DNA of 64,000 nt from a virus. Positions 730 through 61,556 of the stretch are shown piece after piece. Where the stretch lies: positions 1 to 64,000 of the IMG/VR virus record IMGVR_UViG_3300035670_000170; one strand, given 5' to 3'. Each line of letters starts with the position of its first letter. The first letter of the stretch is position 1. The position numbers and the translations under genes were made by a program. A model generated the notes under the pieces. The model did not search any database. It was not told the origin of the DNA and worked only from the letters and a program-made list of their open reading frames with translations.

Positions 730-745
730 GCGCCCGATTTGGTAA
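730..745 (-). repeat. Dispersed motif copy, form R
   Basis: Exact GCGCCCGATTTGGTAA, 17 bases upstream of the DnaA-like start. Pairs with the F copy at 1574 around the two-gene block 789-1489. Confidence 0.85.
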
Positions 746-746
746 G

Positions 747-1573: not shown

Positions 1574-1589
1574 TTACCAAATCGGGCGC
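1574..1589 (+). repeat. Dispersed motif copy, form F
   Basis: Exact TTACCAAATCGGGCGC, directly after the stop of the minus-strand gene at 1600 and preceded by CG, giving CGTTACC. Confidence 0.85.
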
Positions 1590-1599: not shown

Positions 1600-1890
1600 T
1601 TACTGAATACTTGATAAAAAGGTTACAGCACCATACCCAACTCTATACCTTTCTAACAGATGGGGCTTTAGTATGCAGTCACCAACAGTGGTGTCATCAT
1701 CTTTCACCACAATAGCCACATCCGCAGGCTCGGCAATACGCAACTTAGGATCTTTCAGTAGCTTCTCTGCCACCGCGCTTACACACGACACCGACACCCC
1801 GTACTCACGGGCAATCCAGCTAAGGCTAAAGCCGTCATTCCACAGCCGCCAAACGTTCGGAAATTCCGAACAGTTGATTCCTATTTCCAT
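1600..1890 (-). CDS. Small helix-turn-helix protein
   Basis: 96 residues from the ATG at 1890. Residues about 22-45 (LSWIAREYGVSVSCVSAVAEKLL) read as a helix-turn-helix, as in resolvase or sigma-like DNA-binding domains. The C-terminal half (PADVAIVVKDDD) is not recognised. The start lies inside the end of the upstream gene (about 10 bases overlap), as usual in this operon. Probably a regulator; no target can be named. Confidence 0.65.
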   Translation of the reverse strand: MEIGINCSEFPNVWRLWNDGFSLSWIAREYGVSVSCVSAVAEKLLKDPKLRIAEPADVAIVVKDDDTTVGDCILKPHLLERYRVGYGAVTFLSSIQ

Positions 1891-2060
1891 ATTGTAGCAT
1901 TTTTGTCCAACAACCACTTACATAACTTGTCATGGCTTAACTTAGCACAGTTATCCCCCTTGTCGCCATTGGCGTACTGTAAGATAACGTGGTAGTCAGC
2001 CGTCGTCCCGCGTATCTCGTACCTAACGCCATCGACCATAAAGCGGTAGTGCATCACCAT
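1881..2060 (-). CDS. Hypothetical small protein
   Basis: 59 residues if started at the ATG at 2060 (MVMHYRFMVDGVRYEIRG), which lies 19 bases after the upstream stop. The frame is open to 2201, but that start would overlap the well-supported upstream gene by 122 bases in another frame, so I prefer the short form. Beta-rich N-terminal part, helical C-terminal part. Function unknown. Confidence 0.5.
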   Translation of the reverse strand: MVMHYRFMVDGVRYEIRGTTADYHVILQYANGDKGDNCAKLSHDKLCKWLLDKNATIWK

Positions 2061-2370: not shown

Positions 2371-2954
2371 ATACGCAGTAGTTCCTCTATGGTTATACCA
2401 AACTTTGCCAGTCGCCTTTGTACGTTAGCAGTCTTACCCTCTCGCTGTGCTATCTCTATTGTCTTTAGGATTGCCTTTAGGTGTCTTGTGTGCGCCCGAT
2501 TTGCCATGTGTGACAGAAACAGCCGATAGGCTACTATCTGCATGGCACGGCGTTCGCGTCCCGGCCTTGCGTTGACAATGCGTTTACACTCCAAATACTG
2601 TTCAGACGAAATCTTAAACGAAATAGTTACATACCCCTTTCTCTTTTCTGCCTCTGCGATAGCCCTGTCCCGTGCCTTTTCTGCTGCGCGTCCACGCTGT
2701 ATCTTGTATGCGAACACCGACAGCCCCATCCACGACACGTCCTTTGTCTTGCGCCATGCGCGGGTGAATATCTCCACGTCGTTACGGTAGCGCTTGACGT
2801 AGCTGTTTACCCACGGGTTATCCTTGTGTTTTTTCAACAGCTTGTATGCGCGGAAGTAATGTGCTTTGTCACACTGGCGACCAAAGAAGTGTTTGATGTT
2901 ACGCTCTATGACTTCGCGTACAAGTATTTGTTCGTCAGTACCACTCATGGGCAT
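2367..2954 (-). CDS. Hypothetical basic helical protein
   Basis: 195 residues from the ATG at 2954; a second ATG two codons later (2948) is equally possible. The sequence is strongly basic and helical, with an Arg/Lys-rich middle (RGRAAEKARDRAIAEAEKRKG) that could form a coiled coil. No domain recognised. An exact motif copy (R) lies inside at 2492-2506, encoding ANRAH in the gene's frame. The gene overlaps the next by four bases. Confidence 0.6.
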   Translation of the reverse strand: MPMSGTDEQILVREVIERNIKHFFGRQCDKAHYFRAYKLLKKHKDNPWVNSYVKRYRNDVEIFTRAWRKTKDVSWMGLSVFAYKIQRGRAAEKARDRAIAEAEKRKGYVTISFKISSEQYLECKRIVNARPGRERRAMQIVAYRLFLSHMANRAHTRHLKAILKTIEIAQREGKTANVQRRLAKFGITIEELLRI

Positions 2955-6137: not shown

Positions 6138-6152
6138 GCACCCGATTTGGTA
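6138..6152 (-). repeat. Dispersed motif copy, form R (one mismatch)
   Basis: GCACCCGATTTGGTA. With the F copy at 6194 it brackets the terminator below. Confidence 0.7.
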
Positions 6153-6162
6153 TCTGATGGCA

Positions 6163-6190
6163 ATAAAAAAGGGGAGCGTTAACTCCCCTT
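6163..6190 (-). terminator. Rho-independent terminator
   Basis: On the minus strand AAGGGGAG-TTAACG-CTCCCC is followed by six Ts. It would stop transcription between the SSB gene and the VRR-NUC gene. Confidence 0.85.
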
Positions 6191-6193
6191 GGC

Positions 6194-6209
6194 TTAGTAA
6201 ATCGGGCGC
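6194..6209 (+). repeat. Dispersed motif copy, form F (variant)
   Basis: TTAGTAAATCGGGCGC, immediately after the SSB stop codon. Confidence 0.75.
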
Positions 6210-7270: not shown

Positions 7271-7285
7271 TGGTAAATCGGGCGC
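7271..7285 (+). repeat. Dispersed motif copy, form F (variant)
   Basis: TGGTAAATCGGGCGC in the 37-base gap between the dnaB stop and the next start; a lone copy with no R partner. Confidence 0.75.
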
Positions 7286-7292
7286 GACAATA

Positions 7293-8669
7293 TCAAAAAG
7301 GCACATCATCTTCGCCATACTCCCTCCTACGGTCAAAGTCTGCATTAGGTTTCACTACTGATTGAAATTCTTTTCTCCATTCACTAAACACACTCTGTTC
7401 TGGGTCAAACCTAAGTCTTATATCAGCAAGCGCACCGCCCCTGTGTTTAGATATGATAAACTCCGCCATGCCCACAGTGCTAAACCCTTCCTCATCCTGC
7501 ATATCCCCATAGTATTCGGGTCGGTGTATAAACGCCACCATATCCGCATCCTGTTCAATAGCCCCCGATTCCCGTAGATTAGATAGCGTAGGTCTTTTAC
7601 TGCCACGCTGCTCAACCGAACGGCTTAGCTGGCTTAGTGCAATAACAGGTATGTCCAACTCTTTCGCCAACACCTTTAGCCCACGGCTGATGCTACTAAC
7701 TTCGTTCTCCCTGTTACCACCTTTCTCACCTGTCAACAGTTGCAGGTAGTCCAGTACAATCAGGTCAAGCCCATGCCTTGCCTTGTGGCGTGCCGCCATG
7801 CCGCGTAGTTCGTGGATGGTTAACGACGGGTCATCCCATATCCACAGGTTGTCCGTGGTGATTGCCGTAACGCCATTATGTACCTTGTTCCAGTCAAGTA
7901 GCTTCGGTCGCCTAAAGGACGTGGTGTTGTATCCTGTTACGCGGGATAGTCGCCGCTTGTGTATTTCGTTGTTATTCATCTCAAGGCTGACCACCACGAC
8001 CTTCTTTTTGAATTGCAGGGCTGCGTTATCTGCCATGTTCACGGCTAACATTGACTTACCCATTGCCGGACGTGCCGCAAGGATAATCAGGCTACTCTTT
8101 TGCCATCCCCCTGTTACCCTGTCAATGTCGTGGTACCCTGATGGGACACCTGTTATACCGTCTGATTCAATACTTGATTCAATGTCCTTTATTACGTCCC
8201 TTAGTTGCTCTGCTGTTGTTTGGTGCGCCCGTTTTGGCATCGCTGATACATCCATAAGCCTTTTCGCGGCGTCTGTCAGTAACGTGTTAATAGGCTTTTT
8301 GATGTCTTGCGCGTCCGTGTATAGACCCCCAGCGTATGTGATTGTCTTACGTCGGATGTCAAGGTTGCATAGTAGGTCAATATACTCATCTAAGTGCCGT
8401 GCTGACGGGGCTACATTAAGTGATTCGGACAGGTACACGGCATCTACCTCACCGTATAGTTCCCGCATTTCGGTGGCTACCGTGACTAAGTTCACCGTCT
8501 TGCCCTTTTTGAACAGGGACATGGCGGCTTTGTATATCATGTTGTTATACTTATCGTAGAACGCTGTTTCAGGGAGTGCCGTGGCGCAGTCAAGGATGGC
8601 GTCGCTGTGCGATAGGATTGTGCCTATTACCCTACGTTCTAAGTCTAAGTCGTGTGGTGTTTCTGTCAT
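7293..8669 (-). CDS. dnaB: Replicative DNA helicase, DnaB family
   Basis: 458 residues, close to the normal DnaB length. The N-terminal domain (residues 1-100, DLERRVIGTILSHSDAI) is followed by the RecA-like ATPase: Walker A AARPAMGKS (about 200), Walker B LIVLDYLQLL (about 300), and SQLSRSVEQR with the arginine finger region. It would unwind DNA at the phage replication fork. The C-terminus ends GEDDVPF, which copies the SSB acidic tip. An exact motif copy (R) lies inside at 8225-8239 (PKRAHQ). The start ATG has an A-rich leader starting at a motif copy. Confidence 0.95.
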   Translation of the reverse strand: MTETPHDLDLERRVIGTILSHSDAILDCATALPETAFYDKYNNMIYKAAMSLFKKGKTVNLVTVATEMRELYGEVDAVYLSESLNVAPSARHLDEYIDLLCNLDIRRKTITYAGGLYTDAQDIKKPINTLLTDAAKRLMDVSAMPKRAHQTTAEQLRDVIKDIESSIESDGITGVPSGYHDIDRVTGGWQKSSLIILAARPAMGKSMLAVNMADNAALQFKKKVVVVSLEMNNNEIHKRRLSRVTGYNTTSFRRPKLLDWNKVHNGVTAITTDNLWIWDDPSLTIHELRGMAARHKARHGLDLIVLDYLQLLTGEKGGNRENEVSSISRGLKVLAKELDIPVIALSQLSRSVEQRGSKRPTLSNLRESGAIEQDADMVAFIHRPEYYGDMQDEEGFSTVGMAEFIISKHRGGALADIRLRFDPEQSVFSEWRKEFQSVVKPNADFDRRREYGEDDVPF

Positions 8670-8684: not shown

Positions 8685-8699
8685 TCGCCCGATTTAGCT
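8685..8699 (-). repeat. Dispersed motif copy, form R (one mismatch)
   Basis: TCGCCCGATTTAGCT, 16 bases upstream of the dnaB start. Left bound of cassette array A. Confidence 0.75.
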
Positions 8700-9035: not shown

Positions 9036-9076
9036 ATCAACTTTTTATTTTAAATTAAATATTTGTGCTTCTAAAT

Positions 9077-9108
9077 TGGCAACGTCAGCAATACGCAAAA
9101 CGTTAGGC
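9077..9108 (-). repeat. Short or truncated attC-like site
   Basis: GCCTAACGTTTTGCG on the minus strand matches one half of the site at 9312, ending in GTTGCC; the second long arm is missing. Confidence 0.45.
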
Positions 9109-9116
9109 ACAATTAA

Positions 9117-9293: not shown

Positions 9294-9311
9294 TTTCGTA
9301 AAATTAACTGT

Positions 9312-9417: not shown

Positions 9418-9433
9418 TTACCAAATCGGGCGC
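9418..9433 (+). repeat. Dispersed motif copy, form F
   Basis: Exact TTACCAAATCGGGCGC after the stop of the gene at 9441; right bound of array A. Confidence 0.85.
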
Positions 9434-9440: not shown

Positions 9441-10097
9441 TTACTTGTCCCCGTCAGGATTCCATTCTTCTTTCTTAGCCCTTCCTTGTACAACCCATTC
9501 TAATGGGTCACGGTTAATATCCCTGCCGAACACAACACCAAACTTTCTGTACGCACCCTTATAGGCTAAACTCTCTGCTAACGGTAGCTTCTTTTGAAGT
9601 TCAAAGGGGTCGCGCATATCCTCAAGTAACGCACATCCAACGCCCATGTGTGACACGCCCGATTTGCTATCGCACACCTCTGCCACCACCACCACGTTAC
9701 CTACCTCTACGCGCCATTCCACAATGCGTGACGACCGAAAAGGCATCAGCACGTCGGCAGTGTCCTCAAGGTACTGTATTGGCACGTAGTTGACGTCGGG
9801 TAGCTGCGGGTGCTTGCGTATTGCGTCAGGCGGCACAGGGGAAGAAAATGATTGTGAAACCTTTTCCTCTACGGGCTGGTCAACCTTTTCTTTTGGCTGC
9901 TTATTTTTGGGTGTAATCAGTTTTATTTCGTCTATCTCGATTGACCAACGGGAGCCTGTGCCGCCTGACTTTGGGTTGTCCCAAGAAACATCTACGTCTT
10001 TTTTGGACACTAAGGCGACTGTCCCTGTACCGCCCTTGCGTATAAACTCATTACCAACAAGGCTCTTAACCCTGTCGCCTACCTTAAAATTGCTCAT
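9441..10097 (-). CDS. KGDRV-domain protein with Rad52-like C-terminal region
   Basis: 218 residues. Residues 1-60 are the SH3/KOW-like module (FKVGDRVKSLVGNEFIRKGGTGTV) shared with three other genes. After a Pro/Lys-rich linker the C-terminal 110 residues (VEVGNVVVVAEVCD, GVGCALL, LAESLAYKGAYRKFGVVFG) follow the strand-strand-helix pattern of Rad52-type single-strand annealing proteins, where a similar A-E-x2-A-x-K helix is conserved. That would fit its place beside a PD-(D/E)XK exonuclease as a recombination pair, but the similarity is weak. An exact motif copy lies at 9655-9669. Confidence 0.5.
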   Translation of the reverse strand: MSNFKVGDRVKSLVGNEFIRKGGTGTVALVSKKDVDVSWDNPKSGGTGSRWSIEIDEIKLITPKNKQPKEKVDQPVEEKVSQSFSSPVPPDAIRKHPQLPDVNYVPIQYLEDTADVLMPFRSSRIVEWRVEVGNVVVVAEVCDSKSGVSHMGVGCALLEDMRDPFELQKKLPLAESLAYKGAYRKFGVVFGRDINRDPLEWVVQGRAKKEEWNPDGDK

Positions 10098-10113: not shown

Positions 10114-10854
10114 TTAAACTTCAATTACTTCTTCAATGGGTGTGTAGCTGCGCTTATCACACAGTTTGTTGAACAGGCAGTCAGCACACACGTTACAGTC
10201 CTTCGTGGGTATAGGCTCAAACTTGTTAACCATGTAGTCACGCACTTGGTCAATGATACGGTAGTGGTTTTCCATCGCTTCACTGCTGATACGGGCGCGG
10301 ATAAACTTTATCCACCCGCTTTTGCCGAACACCAGATAGTAAAACGGGCGCACCACCCCATCGCGCAGGTAAGAACCAAGGGTATAGTGTACAGCCTGTG
10401 TATGGTCAAGTGCATCAGGGACGCCCCACCCATACTTACCCTTGTCGTCTTTACGTGATGCAGTGTACTTAATGTCAATGATAACACTACTACCTTCGTA
10501 ATCAGCAATGCAGTCAAGGTGAAACACCAAGTCCCCTTCAATGATTTCCGGCTGTACCTCTGTCACCTTTATGCCCATCTTTGGTAGTGTGTTTTGCTTG
10601 TGGTACTTCGCCTGTGATACGGCTTGTGCTGCCCATGCGTAGCTTCCTTCCCCACGCTGTTTCTTTGGCGGCTCGATCGTCTGGTGTCCCCGTGCGGCAC
10701 CTATTAGTTCCTGTTCAAAGAGTAGGCCGGAGTACATTGCCTCTGTTGGCTCCGACCGTAGGCCGTCGATGTACTTTAGCTTGAGCATATAACGGCATCC
10801 GTCACGGTCTTGTACGTCCTTTATTAGGGACTGACTTATTAGTAGTTTATTCAT
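10114..10854 (-). CDS. PD-(D/E)XK exonuclease, Cas4/RecB-like with Fe-S cysteines
   Basis: 246 residues. The nuclease core is clear: FHLDCIADYEGSSVIIDIKYTA gives the catalytic Asp and D-x-K, followed by QAVHYTLGSYL as the QxxxY helix. One early cysteine (DGCRYMLKL) and a C-terminal triplet (CNVCADCLFNKLC) are placed as in the 4Fe-4S cluster of Cas4 and AddB-type nucleases. It probably resects DNA ends in replication or recombination. Its start is 19 bases downstream of a motif copy. Confidence 0.8.
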   Translation of the reverse strand: MNKLLISQSLIKDVQDRDGCRYMLKLKYIDGLRSEPTEAMYSGLLFEQELIGAARGHQTIEPPKKQRGEGSYAWAAQAVSQAKYHKQNTLPKMGIKVTEVQPEIIEGDLVFHLDCIADYEGSSVIIDIKYTASRKDDKGKYGWGVPDALDHTQAVHYTLGSYLRDGVVRPFYYLVFGKSGWIKFIRARISSEAMENHYRIIDQVRDYMVNKFEPIPTKDCNVCADCLFNKLCDKRSYTPIEEVIEV

Positions 10855-10873: not shown

Positions 10874-10889
10874 GCGCCCGTTTTGGTAA
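10874..10889 (-). repeat. Dispersed motif copy, form R (AA variant)
   Basis: GCGCCCGTTTTGGTAA, left bound of cassette array B and upstream of the exonuclease start. Confidence 0.85.
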
Positions 10890-12389: not shown

Positions 12390-12405
12390 TTACCAAATCG
12401 GGCGA
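12390..12405 (+). repeat. Dispersed motif copy, form F
   Basis: TTACCAAATCGGGCGA, preceded by CG; right bound of array B, just after the stop at 12411. Confidence 0.85.
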
Positions 12406-12941: not shown

Positions 12942-13251
12942 TTTCTTTGATTTTACTTGTTCTACGTTTACGATTGCCTTTGGGTTGCGAAAATTCCGAA
13001 ATACTTTTCACCTTTCCAACTTTTATTAGGTCGAAAGTTCTTTTCTGTCGGTTATTCATTCGCCTAACGGATGAGTGGTGGATGAGGATAGGCGTAACGA
13101 TTTGCCCGTCATCCTTTTGGTACTGTGGCATAGCAAAACGGGCGCCCACCCAAAAATAGTCCGGCATATTCTCATCTCCCATTGGTATGACAACACACCC
13201 ATTGACGTGTCTTACTTCTATCACGTCTACTTCTATTACGTAGTATGCCAT
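12928..13251 (-). CDS. Hypothetical basic protein with duplicated leader
   Basis: 107 residues from the ATG at 13251 (MAYYVIEVDVIEV). Beta-rich N-terminus and very basic C-terminus (KGNRKRRTSKIKENGKI), suggesting nucleic acid contact. Its upstream 54 bases are almost identical to those before the HTH gene at 14217, so the two may share control. An exact motif copy (F) at 13131-13146 encodes GARFAMP. Confidence 0.6.
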   Translation of the reverse strand: MAYYVIEVDVIEVRHVNGCVVIPMGDENMPDYFWVGARFAMPQYQKDDGQIVTPILIHHSSVRRMNNRQKRTFDLIKVGKVKSISEFSQPKGNRKRRTSKIKENGKI

Positions 13252-13344: not shown

Positions 13345-13359
13345 GCGCCCGATTAGGCA
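13345..13359 (-). repeat. Dispersed motif copy, form R (variant)
   Basis: GCGCCCGATTAGGCA. It overlaps the stop of a small frameshifted gene and pairs with the F copy at 13780. Confidence 0.7.
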
Positions 13360-13779: not shown

Positions 13780-13795
13780 TTACCAAATCGGGCGC
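13780..13795 (+). repeat. Dispersed motif copy, form F
   Basis: Exact TTACCAAATCGGGCGC, 13 bases after the stop of the membrane microprotein at 13808. Confidence 0.85.
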
Positions 13796-14200: not shown

Positions 14201-14216
14201 TTACCAAATCGGGCGC
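14201..14216 (+). repeat. Dispersed motif copy, form F
   Basis: Exact TTACCAAATCGGGCGC; its last base touches the stop codon of the HTH gene. Confidence 0.85.
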
Positions 14217-14432
14217 TCAAAACCCATATTTCCGCATAACAGACAATATACGTTCGCCCTGCTTTACTGTCATCTGACGCGTACCGTTCAACACACCATT
14301 GATATAAAAGGATGTAGTACCCGCTTCAATGGCTATGCCCTTTTTATTTATGCCGGGGCGGGAGAAAAATTCCTGCATCCTCTTTACGGTGTCTTCGTCT
14401 ACCTTCGGCATCAATTTTCTTTTTCTTTTCAT
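14217..14432 (-). CDS. Small helix-turn-helix regulator
   Basis: 71 residues from the ATG at 14432 (MKRKRKLMPKV). After a basic N-terminus the segment GIAIEAGTTSFYINGVLNGTRQMTVKQ reads as a Xre/lambda repressor-like helix-turn-helix, followed by a helix ERILSVMRKYGF. It probably binds DNA upstream of itself, where a duplicated leader and a perfect palindrome lie, and could control the two genes sharing that leader. Confidence 0.65.
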   Translation of the reverse strand: MKRKRKLMPKVDEDTVKRMQEFFSRPGINKKGIAIEAGTTSFYINGVLNGTRQMTVKQGERILSVMRKYGF

Positions 14433-14483
14433 AGCTTGAATGGTTAAATTTGACACGTTTGCACTTGGTTCTTTTCACTATCA
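14430..14483. repeat. Duplicated leader/control element, copy 2
   Basis: Covers the HTH start codon and upstream region; see copy at 13249. The repeat includes GACACGTTTGCACTTGG. Confidence 0.8.
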
Positions 14484-16798: not shown

Positions 16799-16829
16799 TT
16801 TTGTGCCGTTGTGTTACCAAATCGGGCGC
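16799..16829 (+). repeat. 31-base direct repeat, copy 1
   Basis: TTTTGTGCCGTTGTG followed by the dispersed motif; repeated at 17113-17143. Confidence 0.8.
16814..16829 (+). repeat. Dispersed motif copy, form F
   Basis: Exact copy directly after the stop of the 25-residue ORF at 16831 (minus strand). Confidence 0.85.
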
Positions 16830-17112: not shown

Positions 17113-17143
17113 TTTTGTGCCGTTGTGTTACCAAATCGGGCGC
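17113..17143 (+). repeat. 31-base direct repeat, copy 2
   Basis: Second copy of the element at 16799, 314 bases away, ending in a dispersed motif copy. Confidence 0.8.
17128..17143 (+). repeat. Dispersed motif copy, form F
   Basis: Exact copy within the control region, followed by GACAA as in several other copies. Confidence 0.85.
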
Positions 17144-18540: not shown

Positions 18541-18555
18541 TACCAAATCGGGCGA
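18540..18555 (+). repeat. Dispersed motif copy, form F
   Basis: TTACCAAATCGGGCGA, joined directly to the attC-like hairpin, upstream of the gene at 18601. Confidence 0.85.
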
Positions 18556-19211: not shown

Positions 19212-19588
19212 CAAAGCAGAAGAAGATGGTTAAGGCGCTGAGGGAACTTTTTAGGGAGGCGTATAAGAAGGCTGAGCCTGTGGGGGACTATGATGCGCTG
19301 ATGGCTGACTGGGTTAGGCGTAGGGATGAATACTTTTTGTCGCGCCCGAATTGCCATCCTGCTGATGTGCAGCGTGACTTTTTGGAGGAGAATGTGCCTT
19401 TTTACCGCTACCACTACTTAGACGAAAGGGTGTTTGGCGCTATGGTCAGGTACTATGTAAAAAGTCTAAGGCTTACCCACCTGTTAGAAAGACAGTTTTG
19501 TGCCTCTGCCCACCTTGGGGAAGCGCCGTCGGGTAATAGGGAAGAAGTAATGAGGCTAAGGAAAGAAATGTTTGGGGAGGGTGGGTAA
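19208..19588 (+). CDS. Hypothetical basic protein
   Basis: 126 residues, start ATG overlapping the upstream TGA (ATGA). Helical and basic, with many Arg and Tyr (WVRRRDEYFLSRPN, FYRYHYLDERVFGAMVRYY). No family recognised. A motif copy (R, AATT variant) at 19342-19356 encodes SRPNCH. Confidence 0.6.
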   Translation: MTKQKKMVKALRELFREAYKKAEPVGDYDALMADWVRRRDEYFLSRPNCHPADVQRDFLEENVPFYRYHYLDERVFGAMVRYYVKSLRLTHLLERQFCASAHLGEAPSGNREEVMRLRKEMFGEGG

Positions 19589-19595: not shown

Positions 19596-19610
19596 GCGCC
19601 CGATTTGGTA
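19596..19610 (-). repeat. Dispersed motif copy, form R
   Basis: GCGCCCGATTTGGTA eight bases after a stop codon; with the F copy at 19875 it brackets one attC-like site and one small gene (295 bases). Confidence 0.85.
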
Positions 19611-19696: not shown

Positions 19697-19894
19697 ATGG
19701 CTAAGAGAAGGAAACGCACTGGTTCAAAGTGCATGGTTTGTGGTAAAAAGGTCGTTTGGGGAAGGGACGGTCGCCCTTTTATGTCGGATGGGCTTGAAAC
19801 GGGGGCGTTATTCGGCGCATGGATTGGCATGAAACACTACCATTGCGAAAATAATTTCGACAAAAACGAAACCCTTAGCAAAACGGGCGCGTAG
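19697..19894 (+). CDS. Small zinc-binding-like protein
   Basis: 65 residues. Basic N-terminus (MAKRRKRTGSK), CMVCGKK pair and a later HYHCE give a possible zinc site; the middle GLETGALFGAWIGMKHY is weakly hydrophobic. The C-terminus TLSKTGA and stop are encoded by the dispersed motif at 19875, so the motif has become part of the gene. Confidence 0.6.
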   Translation: MAKRRKRTGSKCMVCGKKVVWGRDGRPFMSDGLETGALFGAWIGMKHYHCENNFDKNETLSKTGA

Positions 19895-20229: not shown

Positions 20230-20244
20230 CCGCCCGATTTGGTA
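20230..20244 (-). repeat. Dispersed motif copy, form R
   Basis: CCGCCCGATTTGGTA directly after the TGA of exported protein 1; pairs with 20844 around the gene at 20309. Confidence 0.85.
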
Positions 20245-20832: not shown

Positions 20833-20875
20833 AAACGAAACCCTTACCAAAACGGGCGCGTAGAAGAAAGAAAAA
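20833..20875 (+). repeat. 43-base direct repeat, copy 2
   Basis: Leader of exported protein 2; see copy at 19864. Confidence 0.85.
20844..20859 (+). repeat. Dispersed motif copy, form F (AA variant)
   Basis: TTACCAAAACGGGCGC, 21 bases upstream of the ATG at 20881. Confidence 0.85.
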
Positions 20876-32670: not shown

Positions 32671-32686
32671 GCGCCCGATTTGGTAA
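32671..32686 (-). repeat. Dispersed motif copy, form R
   Basis: GCGCCCGATTTGGTAA eight bases after the terL stop; left bound of cassette array C. Confidence 0.85.
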
Positions 32687-33385: not shown

Positions 33386-33400
33386 TAATAAAACGGGCGC
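33386..33400 (+). repeat. Dispersed motif copy, form F (variant)
   Basis: CTAATAAAACGGGCGC region directly after the attC-like site; right bound of array C. Confidence 0.7.
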
Positions 33401-35923: not shown

Positions 35924-35939
35924 GCGCCCGTTTTGGTTA
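35924..35939 (-). repeat. Dispersed motif copy, form R (AA variant)
   Basis: GCGCCCGTTTTGGTTA between the portal stop and the opposing HNH gene stop. Confidence 0.85.
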
Positions 35940-42950: not shown

Positions 42951-44698
42951 TGGCTGCAATAGACTACATTGCTAACGGAAATGGGTATTTATACGTTGTA
43001 GCCACGGACGGCACGACGGTTCTTCAATCTATACAAAACACTGTCGACGGGGCTTCCCGCGTCCGTCAGATCGGTTCCTACGTGTCGGCTATCGGCGCTA
43101 ACCTACCGTCTTATGGCATTATTGCCGTTACGTCTGTTGACGCTGGAGGTGGTGACGTGGACACGCTGACTGTAAACGGTGTTGCCATCATTGGCTCCCC
43201 TGTGACTATCACCGCTGGTGATACCGCGTCGGTTGTTGCGCTGAATGTAGCCAACGCCATTAACGCATACACCCCATTGTCGGGGCCAAAGTATCTGGCA
43301 CGTAACAGTGGAACAAAGATTTATTTGTATGCCCCTATCGAACAGGCGTCAACACCTAATGGGTACGCCATTGTTATATCCGGTGACGGGGCGTCGACGT
43401 ACTCAACTACGGCTTTTTCAGGTGGGGTAACGTCGTCATCCAATATCTACGACACTAAGATTGGACGTCGGTTCTTTATCAACGCTAACTTCGATGCTTC
43501 GGGTTGTGCGTGTGGTGAAAGTGCAGGGCCGGGCGACCTGACCAACGCCATTGAGATTACCGAGTATATCATTGTCACGGGTATAAACGGTTCGTTGCAG
43601 CGCGAAACGGCTACCATCGACAGCGTGGGGGCTATCAGCAACACAACCCGCTATGGGGTGCTTACGGTGGTTGATGTGGATACCAATTCGGGCGCGGCAA
43701 CAGACAACCTTGACAACATCTTCTACGCAGCCGCCGACGGGGACATCCTTATTATCAAAGAGGGTTCGGGCAACACCATCACCATTAGGCACAATGAGGG
43801 TAACATCAGACTTGCGGGGGCAGCTAACAAGACCATTGACGCTGACAGCTACGACGCCATCTTCTTGCAGTATAACGCAGAGAACGCCTACTGGGAGGAA
43901 ATCAGCGGTAAGAACGCCATGCCGTCTGTCGCTACCGCACGTGCCGCAGGTCAGCCTTGGTTGACACCCACACTGTATGGCACCGCGTCCATAACGGCGG
44001 CTAATAACACTACGGTAACATACACCGTAAACACCGACAACAGGATTATTGATATTACGGGTACGTTAACCCTTTCAAGCGGAAACTTTGCCGTTGCGTT
44101 CAGCACGTCAGGGGCTATCAAAGGCGACACGTTCATTGTCCGTTACAATGCGAATATCACCATTGGTGCCTATCAGGTTACTATCGGCGGTAAGGCGCTG
44201 ACGGCACACGAATCCCTAAAGGGTGGGTTGATATTGGAGATTGAGTTCAACGGAACGTCGTGGGATGTGAGTATCCTGTATAGCTTTGATAGCGGCTACC
44301 GCATCGGCACGGATGATATTCTTGATGCCAATGTTACTGTCCCTAAGCTGGAATCAGACCTTCAGATTGAGGACAGGGATTTGCCTGTTAGCTTTGAAAC
44401 GGATGAGGTTGGGGATATGAAGATTAAGATGGGGTACCCCGGCGCTGTGAGCCTTGTGACGGCATACGTTACAAAGGCCATTGCGGCTACCGACGATGCT
44501 ACTATTGTTTGTAAGGACAATGCTGCGGCAAGCATGGGGACTATCACCCTTACGGCAAGTTCGGCTATCGGCACTGCGTTTACGCTAACCCCTTCGTCTA
44601 ACAACACCTTTGTCGCTGGTGACGTGCTTACGTTTACTACGGCAAAGTCCACTAAGGGAGGTAAGGCACACCTAAGTATTAAGATTACACGTTCGTAA
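42950..44698 (+). CDS. Beta-rich virion protein, possible fibre or decoration
   Basis: 582 residues, start ATG overlapping the upstream TAA. Strands rich in Thr, Ser, Ala and Gly with many ITI/VTI turns; a short GCACGES motif near residue 185. Resembles phage receptor-binding or head fibre proteins in composition. A motif copy (F, TT variant) at 43681 is read as TNSGAAT. Confidence 0.55.
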   Translation: MAAIDYIANGNGYLYVVATDGTTVLQSIQNTVDGASRVRQIGSYVSAIGANLPSYGIIAVTSVDAGGGDVDTLTVNGVAIIGSPVTITAGDTASVVALNVANAINAYTPLSGPKYLARNSGTKIYLYAPIEQASTPNGYAIVISGDGASTYSTTAFSGGVTSSSNIYDTKIGRRFFINANFDASGCACGESAGPGDLTNAIEITEYIIVTGINGSLQRETATIDSVGAISNTTRYGVLTVVDVDTNSGAATDNLDNIFYAAADGDILIIKEGSGNTITIRHNEGNIRLAGAANKTIDADSYDAIFLQYNAENAYWEEISGKNAMPSVATARAAGQPWLTPTLYGTASITAANNTTVTYTVNTDNRIIDITGTLTLSSGNFAVAFSTSGAIKGDTFIVRYNANITIGAYQVTIGGKALTAHESLKGGLILEIEFNGTSWDVSILYSFDSGYRIGTDDILDANVTVPKLESDLQIEDRDLPVSFETDEVGDMKIKMGYPGAVSLVTAYVTKAIAATDDATIVCKDNAAASMGTITLTASSAIGTAFTLTPSSNNTFVAGDVLTFTTAKSTKGGKAHLSIKITRS

Positions 44699-44934
44699 TG
44701 GTTCGGGTGTACGATATGGGCGTTAAGCTTGGATTGTTAAGGGTTGTTGTTGGTAGCGACAGTGTGTATATTTTGGAAAAGAGTTCAGCCTATGTGTATG
44801 CCGAGGGTGGCGTTATCATTGTTGGTGATGCGGACAGGGAGGTGAATTTCCCCGCGCCCGATTTGCTATTGCCAGAGGGTAACACGGTGGATGAAAAGGT
44901 TGTTGGGATAAGGGCTATGATAGACAACACGTAA
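44698..44934 (+). CDS. Hypothetical small protein
   Basis: 78 residues, start overlapping the upstream TAA. Beta-rich (LLRVVVGSDSVYILEKSS) with an acidic C-terminal helix. It is probably cotranslated with the preceding virion gene. A motif copy (R) at 44864-44878 is read as PAPDLLL. Confidence 0.6.
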   Translation: MVRVYDMGVKLGLLRVVVGSDSVYILEKSSAYVYAEGGVIIVGDADREVNFPAPDLLLPEGNTVDEKVVGIRAMIDNT

Positions 44935-44938: not shown

Positions 44939-45733
44939 ATGGCAATCAACGTAGATACATTCAAGCAGTTTGTGGACGCCGTTTCCAACAAGAACGGCAA
45001 AGGGACTGTCACACCACAGCAGTTCAACCTGTACGTTAACAGGGCGTTGATGGAGTGGACGATGAAGCAGTACGGCAATGAGGACGAATACCAATTCGGG
45101 CGCCCCATCCCCCGTTATGCCTACGAAATGACAACCAACATCACAGACAACCTAAGACACCTAAAGGAAGTCCGTGAGTTCAACGTCCCATCAGACGGTA
45201 AGGTAAGCATCCCCGACGGGTCAACAGTAAAAGACAGGTTCGGGAAGGTATGCCCCAAGTACATGAACTTCTCCTCCGCGCGCACCACATACAAGGTTTA
45301 CGAAGGGACAACAGACAACGACATCTGCGGGTTTACGCCAAAGAAGCCCGAAGACAGACCAGTAAAGACTTACGAAAAGGAAGTACAGCTATTGCGCGAT
45401 GATGAGATAGCCACCTACCTTGACAGCACTATTGTGTATCCGTCGGTATCTTACCCAAAATGCTCACTTTTTGGGTCTTATTTACAGATATGGCCCAAAA
45501 AGGGTCTGCAACAGGTTACGTTAACATACTTGCGTCAGCCCAACGAAGTATTATGGGCGTTCACCACACAGAACGGTCGCCCCGTGTACGATGCGGCGAA
45601 CAGCGTGGACATTGACGCACCGGACAAGGCGTTTAACAGAATCGCCATGAACGTGCTTTCTTTTCTTGGTATATCCATCAGGGAAGATCAACTGTTTCAG
45701 TATGCGGAACTCAATAAAAGCAAGGGTGTTTAA
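44939..45733 (+). CDS. Head-tail connector or tail protein candidate
   Basis: 264 residues. The N-terminal helix FKQFVDAVSNKNGKGTVTPQQF and a central region of strands (QIWPKKGLQQVTLTYLRQPNEV) with an IRED C-terminus are like conserved proteins between capsid and tail genes in Bacteroidota podoviruses. Exact role not known. A motif copy (F, TT variant) at 45088 gives YQFGRPIP. Confidence 0.55.
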   Translation: MAINVDTFKQFVDAVSNKNGKGTVTPQQFNLYVNRALMEWTMKQYGNEDEYQFGRPIPRYAYEMTTNITDNLRHLKEVREFNVPSDGKVSIPDGSTVKDRFGKVCPKYMNFSSARTTYKVYEGTTDNDICGFTPKKPEDRPVKTYEKEVQLLRDDEIATYLDSTIVYPSVSYPKCSLFGSYLQIWPKKGLQQVTLTYLRQPNEVLWAFTTQNGRPVYDAANSVDIDAPDKAFNRIAMNVLSFLGISIREDQLFQYAELNKSKGV

Positions 45734-45792: not shown

Positions 45793-46052
45793 TGGAAAAG
45801 CCATTTCACGGGTACAACAAGAAGCGCCATGCCAAATCGGGCGGCCTCAATGACAAGTTCAGGAGGCAATACAACCGTGAGCATGGTTCAAACCTAAAGC
45901 GTCCTGTGACGCAAAAGAATGTCGACCCAAACAGCAAAGCGGGTAAGCGAAGAAAAAGTTTCTGCGCAAGAATGAGGGGCGTGCAAGGCCCAACAAGTAA
46001 GGACGGCAAATTAACCCCCAAGGGGGCTGCATTAAAACGATGGAGGTGTTGA
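45792..46052 (+). CDS. Conserved basic phage protein (DUF6321-like)
   Basis: 86 residues from the ATG at 45792. The C-terminal signature KRRKSFCARMRGVQGPTSKDG and ALKRWRC matches a small basic protein family of phages (DUF6321-like). No function is known. A motif copy (F) at 45829 encodes HAKSGGL. The TGA overlaps the next ATG. Confidence 0.65.
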   Translation: MEKPFHGYNKKRHAKSGGLNDKFRRQYNREHGSNLKRPVTQKNVDPNSKAGKRRKSFCARMRGVQGPTSKDGKLTPKGAALKRWRC

Positions 46053-47560: not shown

Positions 47561-50500
47561 ATGCTTGATAAAAGGATTTTCGTTGGTGGTATGGACTTTG
47601 ACAGCGACGACAGGCTCGTTGAACAAGGGGACTACCGCTACGCCCTTAACGTCATGTCATCCAAAAACGACAAGGGTGACAACGGCACGTTGGTAAATGC
47701 CAAGGGCGACGTGGAGATACCGTTTGACCTACCCGCCGGAAACAACAGGTGCATAGGCTCTTACGAAAACAAGGCCACACGGAAAGTCTACTTTTGGAAC
47801 TGGAACGATTCAGGCAACCACGGTATTTACGAATATGATGTAGACCAGTCTACCGTTACTACGGTGATGGTGTCGTCCGTGCTTAACTTAAACTTAGATT
47901 TCAAGGTTGTCCATGCGGACATGGTTGACGACCTGTTGTTTTGGGTTGACGGCCTAAACCACCCACGGATGGTTAATGTAAGCCGTGCCAAATCGGGCGC
48001 CTACCCAACCCCCTTGCTGGAATCGTACATCAACAACATCGTCCCACAGCCAGTAATGGCACCCGTGATACAGTACACCACTGACACAGCCCGTAAGACA
48101 AACAACTTGCGCGGGAACCTCTTTCAGTTTAAGACACAGTATCAGGACGTAGACGACAGGCGCAGCGCATGGAGTACGGTTAGTAAAATATCACAGCCAC
48201 CATACGCAGACCAGTACGACAGGATTCAGGCGGTGATAGACCCATCGGTGAACAACGCCATTGACCTAACGATAGAAACAGGGAGCGCCCTGATTAGGAA
48301 GATACGCATAGCCGTAAGGGTTGGTAACAACGCAGACTTTTACTTGGTTGATACCATTGACAAGGACGACCCATCGACATGGGTAGACGGCGTGCAGCCA
48401 CAGGATAACAGCACCTATGTATTTCGGTTCTACAACGACATTGCCCCGACAGCCATTGACATAACTGAATCGAACAAGCCATACGACTTTGTTCCACTGG
48501 TGGCGCATACACAGTCGCTACTTGACGGCCAGCGCCTTGGATATGCCAATATCGAAGAAGGCTTTGACAATGTACCACTGAACGTATTTGCATCGGTGTT
48601 TAGAACGGAAAGACAGAACGTTGCTGGGCTTTCGGGTCAGATAAACGGTATAGGTATTAAGATTGACGGTGTAGACCAGACCACGGGCGATTTCCCGTCT
48701 TTCACATCTGACACGTATTCCAATGATCTTACGGTTTCAAGCGATGACGCGCTAATCCTGAACTCAATAATCGGGGGAACGAACCTAAAGACTGAGTATT
48801 ACATATCCGGGGCATGGAACGAAGGCGACGTGGTTAGTGTTGCATATACCGTTGCGGTGCGGTATGGCACACTTAATGACGGGGCCATAGCTTATTCAGA
48901 CAAAACAAAAACAGTAACACTTACACACATAGTAACTGCCGCCGATGCCGCTAATATATCTGTCCTTAACAACAGCATCATATCGCAGCTAAACTCGCCA
49001 AGCGTTCTCGGTCAGGTTTCTCAAATATCCGAAAGCGGCTTCTTTAATTTACAGTCGTCAATCGCATCGGCAATACCGAATCAGTTTGGTATAGGCTGCG
49101 AAATAAACACATCTGTATCGTCAATTCTTGACCTATCGCCAGTACGCGGGGTTCAGACCATAACCGGCAAGGTAACGGTTCTTAGGGCGTCAATAGCGGG
49201 AACGCAGATTAACAGCTACAAGTCCGGTTCGCGACACGCACTGGGCATTGTTTACTACGACTATGCCGGACGTTACGGGAAAGTTAACGCAGATAGCAGC
49301 ACGGAGGTTTACGTGCCATTTGCCACTGAAGATGACGTGATAGGTTCTTCGGTTATACGCCTAACCATAGGGCATACACCCCCTGTGTGGGCGACGCACT
49401 ATCAGATTGTTTATGCGGGGAACTCGCAGACAAATAGGTTTATCCATACGCGCATAGGTACTGTAACAGCACAAACAAATAATAGATGGAAGATAAACGT
49501 AAACCCAATAATCCGGTACAACGAAGGGTACAACAACGTCCCAATACTTTCGTATTCATTCACCAAGGGTGACAGGATTCGTGGTGTTTGGAAGACCACG
49601 CCCACGGGAATACAGGTGTTTGACGATTTTATTGAGTACGAAGTGTTGGGCTTTGATGAAAGCACGTATGAGATAACCGTTTCTGGCGACAGCACGGGTG
49701 CTATGATACTGACGTCAGGCAACATGGTGGAGATATTCACCCCAAAGAAAAGCGTTGAACAGCGGTTCTTCTACGAAACGGGTGATGTGTTTAAGATTGT
49801 TGGGGGATACCATCAGGGGAACCTACAAAACCAAACAGCGTCACAACCCGCCATACTTGATGTCAATAGTGGTGACGTATGGGTAAGGCCGCGTAAATAC
49901 AACTATGTGGTGGGCTATTCGTTTGGCTCCAGCGATATTATTATTGAGGACTTTTCGTACTCTGACTTTTACACATCAAACTACTGGAACAGGGGCAGGG
50001 CTAACAACATTGACCGTTCATTCGGGCGTGTAAAAAGACCCACCACGGCCTACTATACAGAGGTGTTTATCCCTGAAACGCAGGTCAATGGATTGTCCAA
50101 CATCTTCCCTGAAAGTTTTAGGACTTACGACATCCGGTACGGTGACGTCCTGCGGCTGTACAGCCTTGGCGACAGGGTTGTTGTTTTTCAGAACTTCAGG
50201 GTCGGTCAGGTGTTGGTTAACAAAGAGGTTCTGTACGACAGCACTGGCGGTCAGTCGGGTGCCGTGGAAAGGCTCAATCAGGTGTTGTCACAGATCAGCT
50301 ACTTTGGTGGGGAGTATGGCATCACTAACCCCGAAAGCATGGCTATCTATGGTAAGTCCATTTACTTTGTGGATAGCAACCGTGGGGCTGTGCTTCGTAT
50401 CGGCGGTGACGGCATAACCCGCATCAGTTCATCCGAACAGGCACAGGTGGATTCCTATAAGATGAATACCTACTTTGTCCCACGCCTAAACAAGCTAAAG

Positions 50501-59200: not shown

Positions 59201-61556
59201 CAGCATGGAGCAATACGTGGAAAGCGTCGCTGGCAGTAGCCGCCTTGGGGCTAAGTTCTATGCCATGAGTGGCATGGCACAGGTGTACGCTGGCGGTAGC
59301 CGTGCCGACAAGCGCATGGTTGACGGGTTCCTAAACCCATTAGGGGAACTGTACAAGAAATACCCAGATACCAAGACACCCGAATCCATCATGGCGCGAT
59401 TCATATACGGGTTTATGAATCAGAACTATGGCGGCACAGCCGATGAGGTAGCCGCAGAGTTTGAGCGCAGGAAAGGGTTGTTAGTGTCAGACATTGAGGC
59501 AAAGAAAAAGTCAAAGCGTAAAGACCTACGTGAGCAAGCGGAGCTGGAACAGCGGATGTTCGATATGCTTGTGGCTGACGCGTCGACAATAAAGGACGTT
59601 GTTTCTGCCATGACAAAGAACGGTCACACAGGCGCCCGTGAGATTGTTGACTTAGCCGTGTCGTTTGCCAGCACATACGCTAATGAGTACGACGAGATTA
59701 GTAGGGTTTACAATAACAACACCCTTGACCTTGTAAACAACTACTTGCCCAATAAGACAAAGAAAACAGCTATTATCAGGGACGAAGACCTTGGCATAGA
59801 TCAAGACATCAACTCTGTTGACCCATCGGTAATGACACCCAGTTCGACAAAGAACAGGTTTAAGTCCATGAAGCGCTTAGAGGGTAGCCGTGTTTACGAC
59901 GTGGACTTCGACGCTATGGTTACTAATGAGTTCCGTCATGCCTTAACCTACATTGAAACCCTACCACACATCATGCGCTTTAAGGCCGTGATGAACACCA
60001 ATGATTTGATTGAGGAGATGGGCGAGAAGAACGTTAAGTTCTTAGACCTGAAGATGACTAATGGTGTTAAGATTCTACGGCGTATGTACCCCAGCGATGA
60101 GTATGCCCGTGCGCTGTCAAAGGCGACGTCGGGGTTAGCGTCGTTGGGTGCCAACATAAGCCTTGCGGGTATCACCCAGCCCATGAAACAGGTGTTACCT
60201 GTTGCGTTCAGGGCGATGACGGCGGCAGCAGTAAGAAAGAAGGGCGCAGCGGCGGCACTACACACAACCCTTAGCGGTGCTAACTACAACGAAGGGCTGT
60301 TCTCTAAAGGGACTATCCTAAGCCGCAAGGAAACACGCGGTGGCTATCAGTTTGAGCGCTTAGAGGATTCTGTTGTCAAAGCCCAACGCGGCGTCCTGTC
60401 GAAAGCCTTTGGTAAGTACCTGTCGGCGCGTCGTAAGGCAGCAGACCTAACGATGTACCCATTAACACAGTCGGATTACTTTGCTGCGCGTAAGGCGTGG
60501 GTGTCGTACTATGCAGAGAATCTACTTCAAAGGGGCGTGTATAAAAGCTGGCGCGACATTGACTGGCAAAAGGAATCAGCAGACCCAAATGAAGAAGCGT
60601 CGGCGTATGCAGAGATAATGCTGTCACGTTCACAGAACGTCAATACTATGGCGGCGGCGTCGGAAATGATGACGCGTACAGGTGGATATAAGGACATTTG
60701 GCGAAATATCTTTTTCCCCTTTGCGTCGTTCACGATGAATAACAACGTCACCCGTTGGATAAACTTTAAGCGGTTGCTGTGGGGCAGTCCGACAGAAAAG
60801 GCTATTGCCTTTGGGGACATCACCGCACAGGGGGTGGAGGCACTGGCGTTTAACAGCATTAAGCTGTTGTTGATATACCCACTTAGGATATACCTTGTCA
60901 AGGAAGTTCTAAAGGCTATGTTCGACTATGACGATGAGGAGGTGGATGCTATCGTGTCGTCAAATGAACTACCGCACCGTGTACACCAAGTCATTGCCCA
61001 GTCTACCATTGATATGACCTTCGGGGGCTTCTCATCGCAGTCTGACATGGCAGTGAAGTATGCCGTTAACGACTATTACAAGAATGTGCTACTGCCGTTC
61101 TTTGACGTGGACACAGACAAGGATTTGTTCTATCAGGGTAACATGAGTAGCGATGAGATCAGTACGTTCTTGTCGTCTATTGGTTCTTACGGTATATTGG
61201 CGCAGCAGTTGTTGGACATAGCTGATGTTGCTGAAAGCACGATGTTTGGCTTTAGTGATACTATCATGCTTGACCCAAACCCGTTTGATGCAAGCACGGA
61301 AAAGGTGGAGTACAAGATGACCGAAGACCAGCAGCGGGCGTTACAGATGTATTTGATATTCCACGGAGTCACGATGTTGACGGGCTTAAACGACGTTGAC
61401 GCACGGACTATTGTGAATAAAATTCAGAAGGGGGTAGAGCGTGATATTAAGAGGGGTGGTAAAACGGGCGGGTCAAACAGTGGCACGTTAGAGGCCAAGC
61501 CGATGTCAGGGCGTTCGTTAAGCACCCAAAGCCTGTCGTCAAGGCGTCTAAGATAG
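53202..61556 (+). CDS. Giant polyvalent injection protein
   Basis: 2,784 residues. A short N-terminal repeat-like region (LSGEYEVGSYDDFKSYM, YNVSDYNQFESTY) is followed by long coiled coils, Gly/Ala-rich hydrophobic stretches (about residues 600-640 and 765-785), and a zinc metalloprotease-like HEAVHQ site near 1,377 with acidic EEYVAEFMA about 60 residues on. The C-terminal 800 residues carry conserved polyvalent-protein motifs. It likely travels into the cell with the DNA, processes host or virion proteins, and spans the envelope. Motif copies (F) at 53515, 54356, 57720 and 58440 encode KTGAP, QIGRP, NRAPQ and KSGDK; a variant lies at 61458. Confidence 0.75.
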   Translation: MNDKALQALYKDLSGEYEVGSYDDFKSYMANPTNRKKLYDNVIVKRYNVSDYNQFESTYATAPAQGEPVKKKESTIGGIASEASVSEAQSTSQGDELAVQAEVTDTKTGAPKQGIGALAVSVIPTKDEVAYKTISSQRQKAVDRDIDANAQATISEIASSISPETEAQIQTEYENYKATLPIPQKPKDYNQYRLDYIKDYYGIKDSKGIADIDARYKAKSEAAKRQRELDEAVSVFAKKFSERPSSPIYSNLLNATKLIEKPKEGDDKAEPVDVSGRFKRNIDTPAGTTTVDILTQGISSVPEGGIQFYANNSPRRVYVGGVDSKPESFAVDELGNRTDEPDKVKQSLSQFTPNTADALTPVDDNQYAIFKKVIEDYATENPEKAKQIGRPQTLYSQSWDRGDYRLKQEWDVVKDGAFVREAIKYQKEKLANEYTQRVTQLEKQFAQDIAARPDKQAVYDSDFEVQKANLALQYNSAEKYLDLMYNGYVRANIKNADRVETEIAYQQAERDIKEIEAMREADKQWYNKQNAVVQFGVDVWDGFADAGKEIVRGVESLGYLATGTDMPDEQKRFYVQYDAMRAGSDESLVRDATSMIAQTAAIMAPAGWIGGTLKTLGVGAKVAQTTGIVTSSYLQTAGTSYIDAMAQGMDSETAMVYGNVMGLSQGFVEAIFPSDYLFGGVRTQMKKNIVNILKNASPAEIRRMTSGQVIRSAFSEFANETKKEMVEEVAAYLSEKGINFTMNQVTGKDILDDEVTIKDMANAAGGAAIVGTFFGGSRVIKSFKNSAVFPVQMQYEYLAASDPDGVMEKIEFAKKEGALTDVQYKNAKDRLNSLVEQKKAVDAASPEMSEFNKAVLVNMRADKDEAVKYAKTLDETDPVDARILQTMNEKIATIDALQNDILKGEDAGKAYAKYLNESMGIISRGVEEAGTQQPQAEVIPDGVVVEDIPDEDAFSVFGFEQMSGEQLADIQEQIDLRESGYDEMAEIIAKELGLPEGTVATVEDLAAAYLEAQNPDVQTLRDGLRGLRVNRDSFVQFADKNYITQGLARAWFTRKKDRSGRDLDEIAQEISEMRGQEVTPQDIVDIIVENPNGIPQRSERAARINDLYKQKTGKNLNTSVAAKILNKRGVKAVNNDIVKDVLNIFVGPSGNINTDELIREIESGPDFFMAWPYSLTMQEYEELKKAIADPKRREEILGEATNFKKDYSWVEGFDEDYGTQEEGGIDAIQEQGATAVDVQEQAADGEKVVEGTPESGREEAAQEGQEAVSFEAARAVEPPIKERVELTGTRADRVVIDRIKEGASESAKALLDRLPNVMKALRRSGVNVRIVLHPSAESFNGVDGETVSMRTGNAKILPDGTIHIDMSSATTTAGSLVHEAVHQVISDVIAADPIRLAKMANDLRDTLKKAMPDVHEDLEEFTQQYEPQERDEEYVAEFMAMVADGYVDIDKLSPPKRKSVLEWFNRLLNAFGFDSVKITDTMSAIDVAAAINRALEEGVRIKSKVSKANRAPQTRQQKFLDRMNASRDSKGLPRWGEKKQKSLEQQAKEMADDLIKDFPDEETKKMYDFAYSYHLRQLQAQNKPKYQRVQRISPEFRKGLIKLSKQYIENGTPKDQIIEGLKEQGILSSQANAIYTEAKNQTLNDISQTDPIVKDAVKQLESGIKISEVSQNVIAALPDNKKALSAFYVAAAMNRYLSRPNDFKATIDKKVAEIKQKAKDKAELKGDKDKAAKEIKKAKAAIKRAMRGKSGDKRLFARDKTTLKTFVGINHNQLSDESKAEYLAVLASVASSVSPVKVSNIEDEYIAQNARREYTNDDIDALNEKYLAEVDSEKRRRLLDKVASFYSQMDMALPEEFGSMTVSDLQALAANILSEEQLPDVDKEQEQQLKRQALLELAAEYVAEAVAAMDSGVIDTESMTPLEKRIIDGISNGSVDALSLNEIKTLIKGMDNFVTNGSLDGMGKIAARMEAPAIVKQFLAEKVKMCVKFGNLDFFTRFAGSMEQYVESVAGSSRLGAKFYAMSGMAQVYAGGSRADKRMVDGFLNPLGELYKKYPDTKTPESIMARFIYGFMNQNYGGTADEVAAEFERRKGLLVSDIEAKKKSKRKDLREQAELEQRMFDMLVADASTIKDVVSAMTKNGHTGAREIVDLAVSFASTYANEYDEISRVYNNNTLDLVNNYLPNKTKKTAIIRDEDLGIDQDINSVDPSVMTPSSTKNRFKSMKRLEGSRVYDVDFDAMVTNEFRHALTYIETLPHIMRFKAVMNTNDLIEEMGEKNVKFLDLKMTNGVKILRRMYPSDEYARALSKATSGLASLGANISLAGITQPMKQVLPVAFRAMTAAAVRKKGAAAALHTTLSGANYNEGLFSKGTILSRKETRGGYQFERLEDSVVKAQRGVLSKAFGKYLSARRKAADLTMYPLTQSDYFAARKAWVSYYAENLLQRGVYKSWRDIDWQKESADPNEEASAYAEIMLSRSQNVNTMAAASEMMTRTGGYKDIWRNIFFPFASFTMNNNVTRWINFKRLLWGSPTEKAIAFGDITAQGVEALAFNSIKLLLIYPLRIYLVKEVLKAMFDYDDEEVDAIVSSNELPHRVHQVIAQSTIDMTFGGFSSQSDMAVKYAVNDYYKNVLLPFFDVDTDKDLFYQGNMSSDEISTFLSSIGSYGILAQQLLDIADVAESTMFGFSDTIMLDPNPFDASTEKVEYKMTEDQQRALQMYLIFHGVTMLTGLNDVDARTIVNKIQKGVERDIKRGGKTGGSNSGTLEAKPMSGRSLSTQSLSSRRLR

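Follow-up and report, generated by a model that had tools for sequence, protein, structure and literature searches.

The window analysed here, 64,000 bp in length, covers bases 1-64000 of the viral record IMGVR_UViG_3300035670_000170 (68,976 bp, hereafter G000), and carries tens of copies of a DNA word with the core CAAWWCGGGCG, the motif considered throughout, dispersed among its early and late genes. Bases 1-103 of the record are identical to bases 68874-68976, and because of this identity the genome is probably complete; the source database classes it as linear and without end repeats, despite this exact 103-bp direct repeat at the record ends. The terminase and the portal protein were assigned to PHROG families. 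Among named phages whose host is stated, those with relatives of these proteins (24-35% identity) all infect Flavobacteriia; they include Flavobacterium elemoviruses, Cellulophaga phi38:1 and phi13:2, and Tenacibaculum Gundel_1. The virus is a podovirus-like phage of Bacteroidota, distant from every named genus. Genes are read leftward from 1 to 17 kb and mostly rightward in the remainder. The leftward set encodes, among others, a DnaB-like helicase, an exonuclease, a Cas4-like nuclease and a methyltransferase; inspection adds an SSB-like protein, which has a DDLPF tail, and an SSAP-like (single-strand-annealing-like) protein. Neither tRNA genes nor matches to Rfam RNAs were found in this phage. 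Genes were called by a simple codon-usage script, leaving 12.8% of the genome non-coding, and the border or coding label of single sites may shift with these calls.

The motif is a long, asymmetric, one-directional word that is near-identical between copies. Described in the initial annotation as 16 bases long, it proved to extend over about 27 bp in the aligned copies, from -6 to +21 counted from the core's first C, and to include a further box, CAAA, at +14..+17. The consensus gwTACCAAATCGGGCGCnnCAAAa, in parts gwTAC-CAAATCGGGCG-C-nn-CAAA-n-a-n-a, amounts to 27-29 bits in all, and variation is smaller among border copies (TTAC CAAATCGGGCGC gn CAA) than among copies inside genes. Exact cores number 37 in the window, as first counted by eye, with one more beyond it (64040). 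Allowing up to one mismatch, the window holds 49 copies, against 4.2 +/- 2.3 in dinucleotide shuffles, a number reached by 0 of 100 shuffles. When scored with a 24-column weight matrix (sites being defined above 15 bits), the record contains 48 sites, 46 of them in the window, where 0.1 would be expected in first-order Markov sequence, while the range from 6 to 15 bits is nearly empty (5 sites vs 3.2 in such sequence). All 44 copies initially listed were found; that list had missed two copies in the window, 10340 (+) and 26265 (-), and its 16-mer starts lie a few bases off the core starts. The copies in G000 are given below by the coordinates of the 11-bp core.

731..741, minus strand, motif copy 18 bp upstream of the DnaA_C-domain gene
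1578..1588, plus strand, motif copy
2493..2503, minus strand, motif copy within gene 2367-2954
6139..6149, minus strand, motif copy on one flank of a bidirectional terminator-like hairpin
6198..6208, plus strand, motif copy on the opposite flank of that hairpin, 8 bp past the SSB-like stop
7274..7284, plus strand, motif copy 8 bp past the dnaB-like stop
8226..8236, minus strand, motif copy within the dnaB-like gene
8686..8696, minus strand, motif copy 16 bp upstream of the dnaB-like start
9422..9432, plus strand, motif copy 8 bp past the SSAP-like stop
9656..9666, minus strand, motif copy within the SSAP-like gene
10340..10350, plus strand, motif copy within the Cas4-like nuclease gene
10875..10885, minus strand, motif copy 20 bp upstream of the Cas4-like gene
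12394..12404, plus strand, motif copy 1-14 bp past a stop
13134..13144, plus strand, motif copy
13346..13356, minus strand, motif copy
13784..13794, plus strand, motif copy
14205..14215, plus strand, motif copy 1 bp past the stop of a small helix-turn-helix (HTH) gene
16818..16828, plus strand, motif copy sharing flanks with the 17132 copy
17132..17142, plus strand, motif copy sharing flanks with the 16818 copy
18544..18554, plus strand, motif copy
19343..19353, minus strand, motif copy
19597..19607, minus strand, motif copy 1-14 bp past a stop
19879..19889, plus strand, motif copy upstream of a small secreted-protein gene, sharing flanks with the 20848 copy
20231..20241, minus strand, motif copy
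20848..20858, plus strand, motif copy upstream of a small secreted-protein gene
25566..25576, minus strand, motif copy
25769..25779, plus strand, motif copy
26265..26275, minus strand, diverged motif copy (18.1 bits)
28319..28329, minus strand, motif copy
28609..28619, plus strand, motif copy within a glycosyltransferase-like gene
32279..32289, plus strand, motif copy within the terminase large subunit gene
32672..32682, minus strand, motif copy 8 bp past the terminase stop
33389..33399, plus strand, motif copy upstream of the portal gene
35925..35935, minus strand, motif copy between the convergent portal and HNH genes
37717..37727, plus strand, motif copy within a structural gene
43684..43694, plus strand, motif copy within a structural gene
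44855..44865, minus strand, motif copy, the only antisense one of the listed sites beyond 37.5 kb
45092..45102, plus strand, motif copy within a structural gene
45833..45843, plus strand, motif copy
47989..47999, plus strand, motif copy within the structural gene of 1212 amino acids
50795..50805, plus strand, motif copy within the structural gene of 1212 amino acids
53519..53529, plus strand, motif copy within the gene of 2784 amino acids
54360..54370, plus strand, motif copy within the gene of 2784 amino acids
57724..57734, plus strand, motif copy within the gene of 2784 amino acids
58445..58455, plus strand, motif copy within the gene of 2784 amino acids
61460..61470, plus strand, motif copy within the gene of 2784 amino acids
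64040 and 64529, two motif copies beyond the window, also missing from the initial list

Gene borders are strongly over-represented among these positions, 22 of 48 pattern hits falling between called genes (p=2e-8 against the non-coding share of the genome). Border copies form two groups, located either 16-24 bp upstream of a start and pointing into the gene (731, 8686, 10875, 19879, 20848) or 1-14 bp past a stop and pointing back at the gene (e.g. 6198, 9422, 12394, 19597, 32672). The CAAA side is turned toward the nearer coding sequence in 17 of 21 scorable cases (p=0.004), and at least half of the border copies are antisense to neighbouring genes. Two different genes for small secreted proteins (19914, 20881) are each preceded by a conserved block of about 40 bp that contains a copy (19879 and 20848, respectively), and this shared block is the best single hint of a regulatory role. 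Density is uneven along the genome (1.2 sites per kb below 21 kb vs 0.5 per kb above), and orientation is mixed in the early region, while 13 of 14 copies beyond 37.5 kb are oriented with transcription. Pairing of oppositely oriented sites less than 350 bp apart was borderline (p=0.05 and 0.035), and we make no claim of it.

Coding copies are found in all three frames and on both strands (19 sense, 7 antisense). Synonymous codon shuffles within each gene, which keep proteins and codon usage, retained on average 0.59 coding copies (maximum 4) against 20 observed; since such shuffles remove the copies, selection acts on the DNA and not on the protein, in agreement with what the use of several frames had initially suggested.

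The hairpin between the copies at window 6139-6208 is bidirectional and terminator-like (AAAAAAGGGGAGCGTTAACTCCCC). A second, hairpin-like repeat, GCTAAC..GGGGCTTGTGGC(G)TATTTATAGCGTTTAGCCCC, at window 8722 (-), 10899 (-), 18529 (+), 19643 (+) and 32704 (-) and at G000 66060 (-), adjoins several border copies and stands without the motif at 66060. Repeated CAAAACGTTA(T/G)GC-type words, somewhat similar to integron attC cores, occupy the non-coding stretch 9035-9441 and occur also at 12086, 32684 and 33373.

Outside this phage the word was not enriched. The 14-mer ACCAAATCGGGCGC occurred 11 times in 396 Bacteroidota genomes, approximately the chance level, in a sample that may not include the host's own genome; the 20-bp extended motif was found in no other IMG/VR contig, and the exact core was absent from every viral relative checked. 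Because of this absence and of the chance-level counts in Bacteroidota, the motif appears to be the phage's own. The initial annotation, which proposed a dispersed, DNA-level selected word with no exact known parallel, thus held in each part that could be examined: motif counts stood far above the shuffled level (49 vs 4.2) and the host phylum showed only chance density.

Beyond that annotation, relatives of the phage were found to carry different motifs of the same kind. De novo word counting revealed, in three other lineages, an equally dispersed word proper to each. In G001/G003/G004 (terminase 38-39% identical by tblastn, GC content 34-36%), the word WTCGGYATTG is matched as a pattern 47 times in 69.5 kb, and 49 sites exceed 15 bits (G004), with the consensus ATACAATRCCGAWTnGnCA in the opposite reading direction. 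G440 (terminase 47%, GC content 35%) carries GCCACACCA, with CCACACCA-type sites; CACACCA occupies 49 distinct loci there, and 66 sites exceed 14 bits in a less sharp score distribution. G442 (terminase 39%) carries AGTANAGGCG / cAGTANAGGCG at about 37 sites. The four motif-bearing genomes have in common an asymmetric footprint of 19-27 bits, and copies of the relatives' motifs were likewise lost in synonymous shuffles (35 observed vs 1.3 shuffled, 28 vs 2.4 and 28 vs 3.5). A uniform word statistic reached 57-137 in these four genomes and 10-36 in 13 other relatives, the highest of which was MW202828. This outgroup phage (MW202828.1) has, at 43.7-55.2 kb, an element of another kind: a 16-bp palindrome, GTGTCGTTAACGACAC, in 14 perfect copies that mostly precede early genes and are likely a repressor operator array. 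Genome-specific words stand just upstream of starts in Cellulophaga phage phi38:1 and G043 (AAACACTATCAAA, at a distance of about 12 bp, and AAAAGGTTACAAA(ATG), respectively), and AAAATTTT is strongly avoided in Cellulophaga phage phi13:2 (8 counted vs 37 expected), as also in Gundel_1.

Motif presence and site positions differ within the clade. No motif was found in 36 kb of G043, which the portal and 41346-gene trees place as the sister of this phage, or in 27 kb of G044, the sister of G001 and G004 (G001, G043 and G044 being fragments). G001 and G004 have the motif in common and late proteins 40-76% identical, and share only 2 site positions, in the portal and the large structural gene; their remaining sites in the genes under comparison do not coincide. 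It follows that sites come and go while the word persists, as would be the case if having many sites were useful without any one of them belonging to a particular gene. In the late genes compared between this phage and G004, no site occupies a common position. Their motifs can be aligned well by eye (CAA-N2-C-N-G-N6-CAAA or T..C.AWTCGG), but matrix comparison gave p=0.26, and we do not claim that they are homologous; those of G440 and G442 are different words by inspection.

Several proteins of the phage are candidates for reading the word:

36535..37194, minus strand, candidate binder, orphan protein of 219 amino acids with an N-terminal homeodomain-like HTH (HTH_23) and a possible second, winged HTH
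311..712, minus strand, candidate binder with a DnaA C-terminal DNA-binding domain, a motif copy lying 18 bp upstream of its start
14217..14456, minus strand, candidate binder, small HTH protein (weak basis)
1600..1917, minus strand, candidate binder, small HTH protein (weak basis)

None of these HTH candidates is tied to the sites. No relatives of the 36535..37194 protein were found, and AlphaFold models of this protein (pLDDT 37) and of the 2367-2954 product (pLDDT 52) were too poor to search. The DnaA_C protein, initially proposed for binding tests, occurs in no other clade member checked, and is for that reason weakened as a general explanation and rejected as a common binder. An integrase or MrpR-like binder was likewise set aside, PF00589 occurring only in G004, where a catalytic-domain-only tyrosine recombinase (1e-23) lies at 728-1297. 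Outside conserved virion genes, no gene is common to all motif-bearing genomes, and the families present in three of them and (nearly) missing elsewhere look structural (51907 and 61584 families). Of greatest interest is one locus: directly behind the portal and antiparallel to the late operon, G001, G003/G004, G044 and G440 carry a Cro/CI-type HTH gene of 68-75 amino acids, and this phage carries there an HNH gene and the orphan 36535..37194 HTH protein, likewise antiparallel and unrelated to the Cro/CI-type proteins. This locus may be considered a lead and not an identification, because its correlation with the motif is imperfect (G044 and G442, see below). G442 encodes a protein with two HTHs. 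As a separate observation, three proteins (9441-10097, 12411-12941 and 17791-18504) have in common an N-terminal SH3-like domain (K.GDRV......G.TGTV).

We favour, with about an even chance of its being right, the explanation that the copies are sites of a phage-encoded, sequence-specific DNA-binding protein acting genome-wide, most likely a global transcription regulator. Protein binding, phage encoding of that protein and a mainly transcriptional role are what we infer; the sites themselves, DNA-level selection, the lack of enrichment in the host phylum, the parallel but different motifs of three relatives and the turnover of sites are observed. Experimental precedents exist in the stoperators and in SPBRE/MrpR, both described below. 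Each asymmetric copy of about 27 bp would be bound by one such protein, which would occupy gene borders and would also block or tune elongation inside genes; its specificity would be replaced fast in the clade, each motif-bearing lineage having evolved tens of sites for its own word. Behind a sharp asymmetric word of 20-27 bp there is most likely a protein recognising at least two turns of the DNA, and transcription control is its best supported role, because of the border excess, the start-proximal spacing and the shared upstream block. Copies deep inside structural genes, on either strand, ask for more, which could be elongation control or an additional function in organising, replicating or packaging the genome. 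Several observations weigh against a phage-encoded regulator: about half of the pattern hits are inside genes, many of them structural, and sites occur in both orientations across the genome; sigma-70 promoter and terminator scans of 1-20 kb, which do not model Bacteroidota promoters, stayed at shuffle level; no recognisable lysogeny repressor was found in this apparently complete genome, nor any integrase (PF00589); the four motif-bearing genomes have no early (regulatory) gene in common; and G044 has the portal-side HTH gene with no motif in its 27 kb, while G442 has the motif and no gene there. Replication, recombination, packaging or genome organisation, with a phage protein bound genome-wide to structure, segregate, protect or mark the DNA as self, is a doubtful but real contender. 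Sites spanning the whole genome, late genes included, at tens of copies per motif-bearing genome would suit it, as would their mostly one-way course in late regions (13/14 in this phage, 8/8 in G001 and 9/10 in G004, statistics that mix related genomes) and the SSB-like, SSAP-like and phosphoesterase/exonuclease genes that this phage and G004 share among their early genes and that have no homologue in the motif-less 36-kb contig of G043, which carries another replication module. The border excess and start-proximal spacing, the mixed orientation of early sites, the G440 sites not aligned with its late genes and the uneven density all speak against it.

A host factor or host-specific sequence (Chi-like, uptake-like or read by a host nucleoid protein), its word differing with the host, is unlikely to account for the motif: a different word in each phage lineage and the lack of a shared phage gene in all four genomes would fit, but ACCAAATCGGGCGC is at chance level in Bacteroidota, so that a host-encoded word is not supported, and 19-27 bits exceed what Chi or uptake words are generally known to need. 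A host protein as the binder is also unlikely, because the host phylum shows no enrichment and relatives carry different words. Genome-specific promoters of 20-27 bp for a phage-type or virion RNA polymerase seem very improbable; their length would resemble that of single-subunit phage promoters, as generally known, and several copies stand 16-24 bp upstream of starts in gene direction, but many others are found 1-14 bp past stops, pointing against the gene, or within genes in either orientation, and no phage RNA polymerase family was matched among the proteins scanned. We give almost no credence to the idea that a mobile or duplicated element left the dispersed copies behind; only the pairs 16818/17132 and 19879/20848, with longer common flanks, would speak for it. 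Flanks beyond the motif are unrelated in all other copies, which argues for independent sites rather than transposition, and coding copies sit within conserved late genes, terminase among them, with the word rebuilt from synonymous codons. 

It is a tentative possibility that each motif-bearing lineage of this Bacteroidota podovirus clade fills early and late genes with tens of copies of a private asymmetric word that is replaced wholesale while the pattern is kept, which would make the sites a self-recognition or genome-organisation system and no lysogeny operator array.

Tens of conserved sites in essential structural genes imply a continuous cost in codon choice for recognition along the whole genome, and the scattered, differing words of the relatives point to a fast-changing recognition of the self genome by a virus protein. 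The four parallel motif sets constitute a natural series of re-specifications: a protein changing with the word would reveal the joint replacement of a DNA-binding system and its roughly 50 sites, and would also show whether dispersed sites outside mycobacteriophages exist for the same or for a new reason.

Searches of the open-access literature turned up no description of motifs like these in phages of Bacteroidota, and the known systems that resemble them differ in several respects. The C1 operators of phage P1 are asymmetric and dispersed on both strands, mostly at promoters, but are fewer than the copies described here. Chi and DNA-uptake words are also asymmetric and present on both strands, are abundant in the host chromosome, and are shorter than this motif. 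SPBRE of the Bacillus prophage SPbeta, a 15-bp intergenic repeat predicted in silico, is an instructive precedent: it was shown decades later to represent the sites of the master repressor MrpR, a protein with a tyrosine-recombinase fold (PMC10516654). Our motif was similarly first found in silico, but is longer and not confined to intergenic sequence, and only G004, not this phage, has a PF00589 match, a search that a diverged fold could escape. The start-associated sequences of cluster K mycobacteriophages lie 3-7 bp before starts, in one direction and in the non-structural half only (PMC3203893). The resemblance lies in an asymmetric word that recurs in the phages rather than the host (here at chance level in the host phylum) and often precedes starts closely; here, however, a minority of copies is start-proximal (16-24 bp), late genes are included, and position and orientation differ. 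The stoperators of cluster A mycobacteriophages (L5, Bxb1, TipsytheTRex) are asymmetric sites of about 13 bp, more than 20 such 13-mers occurring in L5, which are bound by a monomeric two-domain repressor and are thought to affect elongation as well as initiation (PMC6550527, PMC9283540). They share with the present motif the tens of asymmetric sites per genome (48 above 15 bits here), many at gene borders, and the genome-specific versions of the word. Stoperators are about half as long (~13 vs ~27 bp) and mostly in one orientation relative to transcription, while both orientations occur here and become one-sided only beyond 37 kb; they occupy promoter regions and short intergenic spaces, against 22 of 48 copies at borders here and the rest in genes, structural ones included; their versions are alike across relatives, where ours are different words (p=0.26 between this phage and G004); and their repressor is encoded by the phage, where this genome offers HTH candidates with no known repressor homologue. 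Because orientation, position and similarity of versions differ in this way, we do not class the motif among stoperators, which nevertheless are the nearest known system and may work alike.

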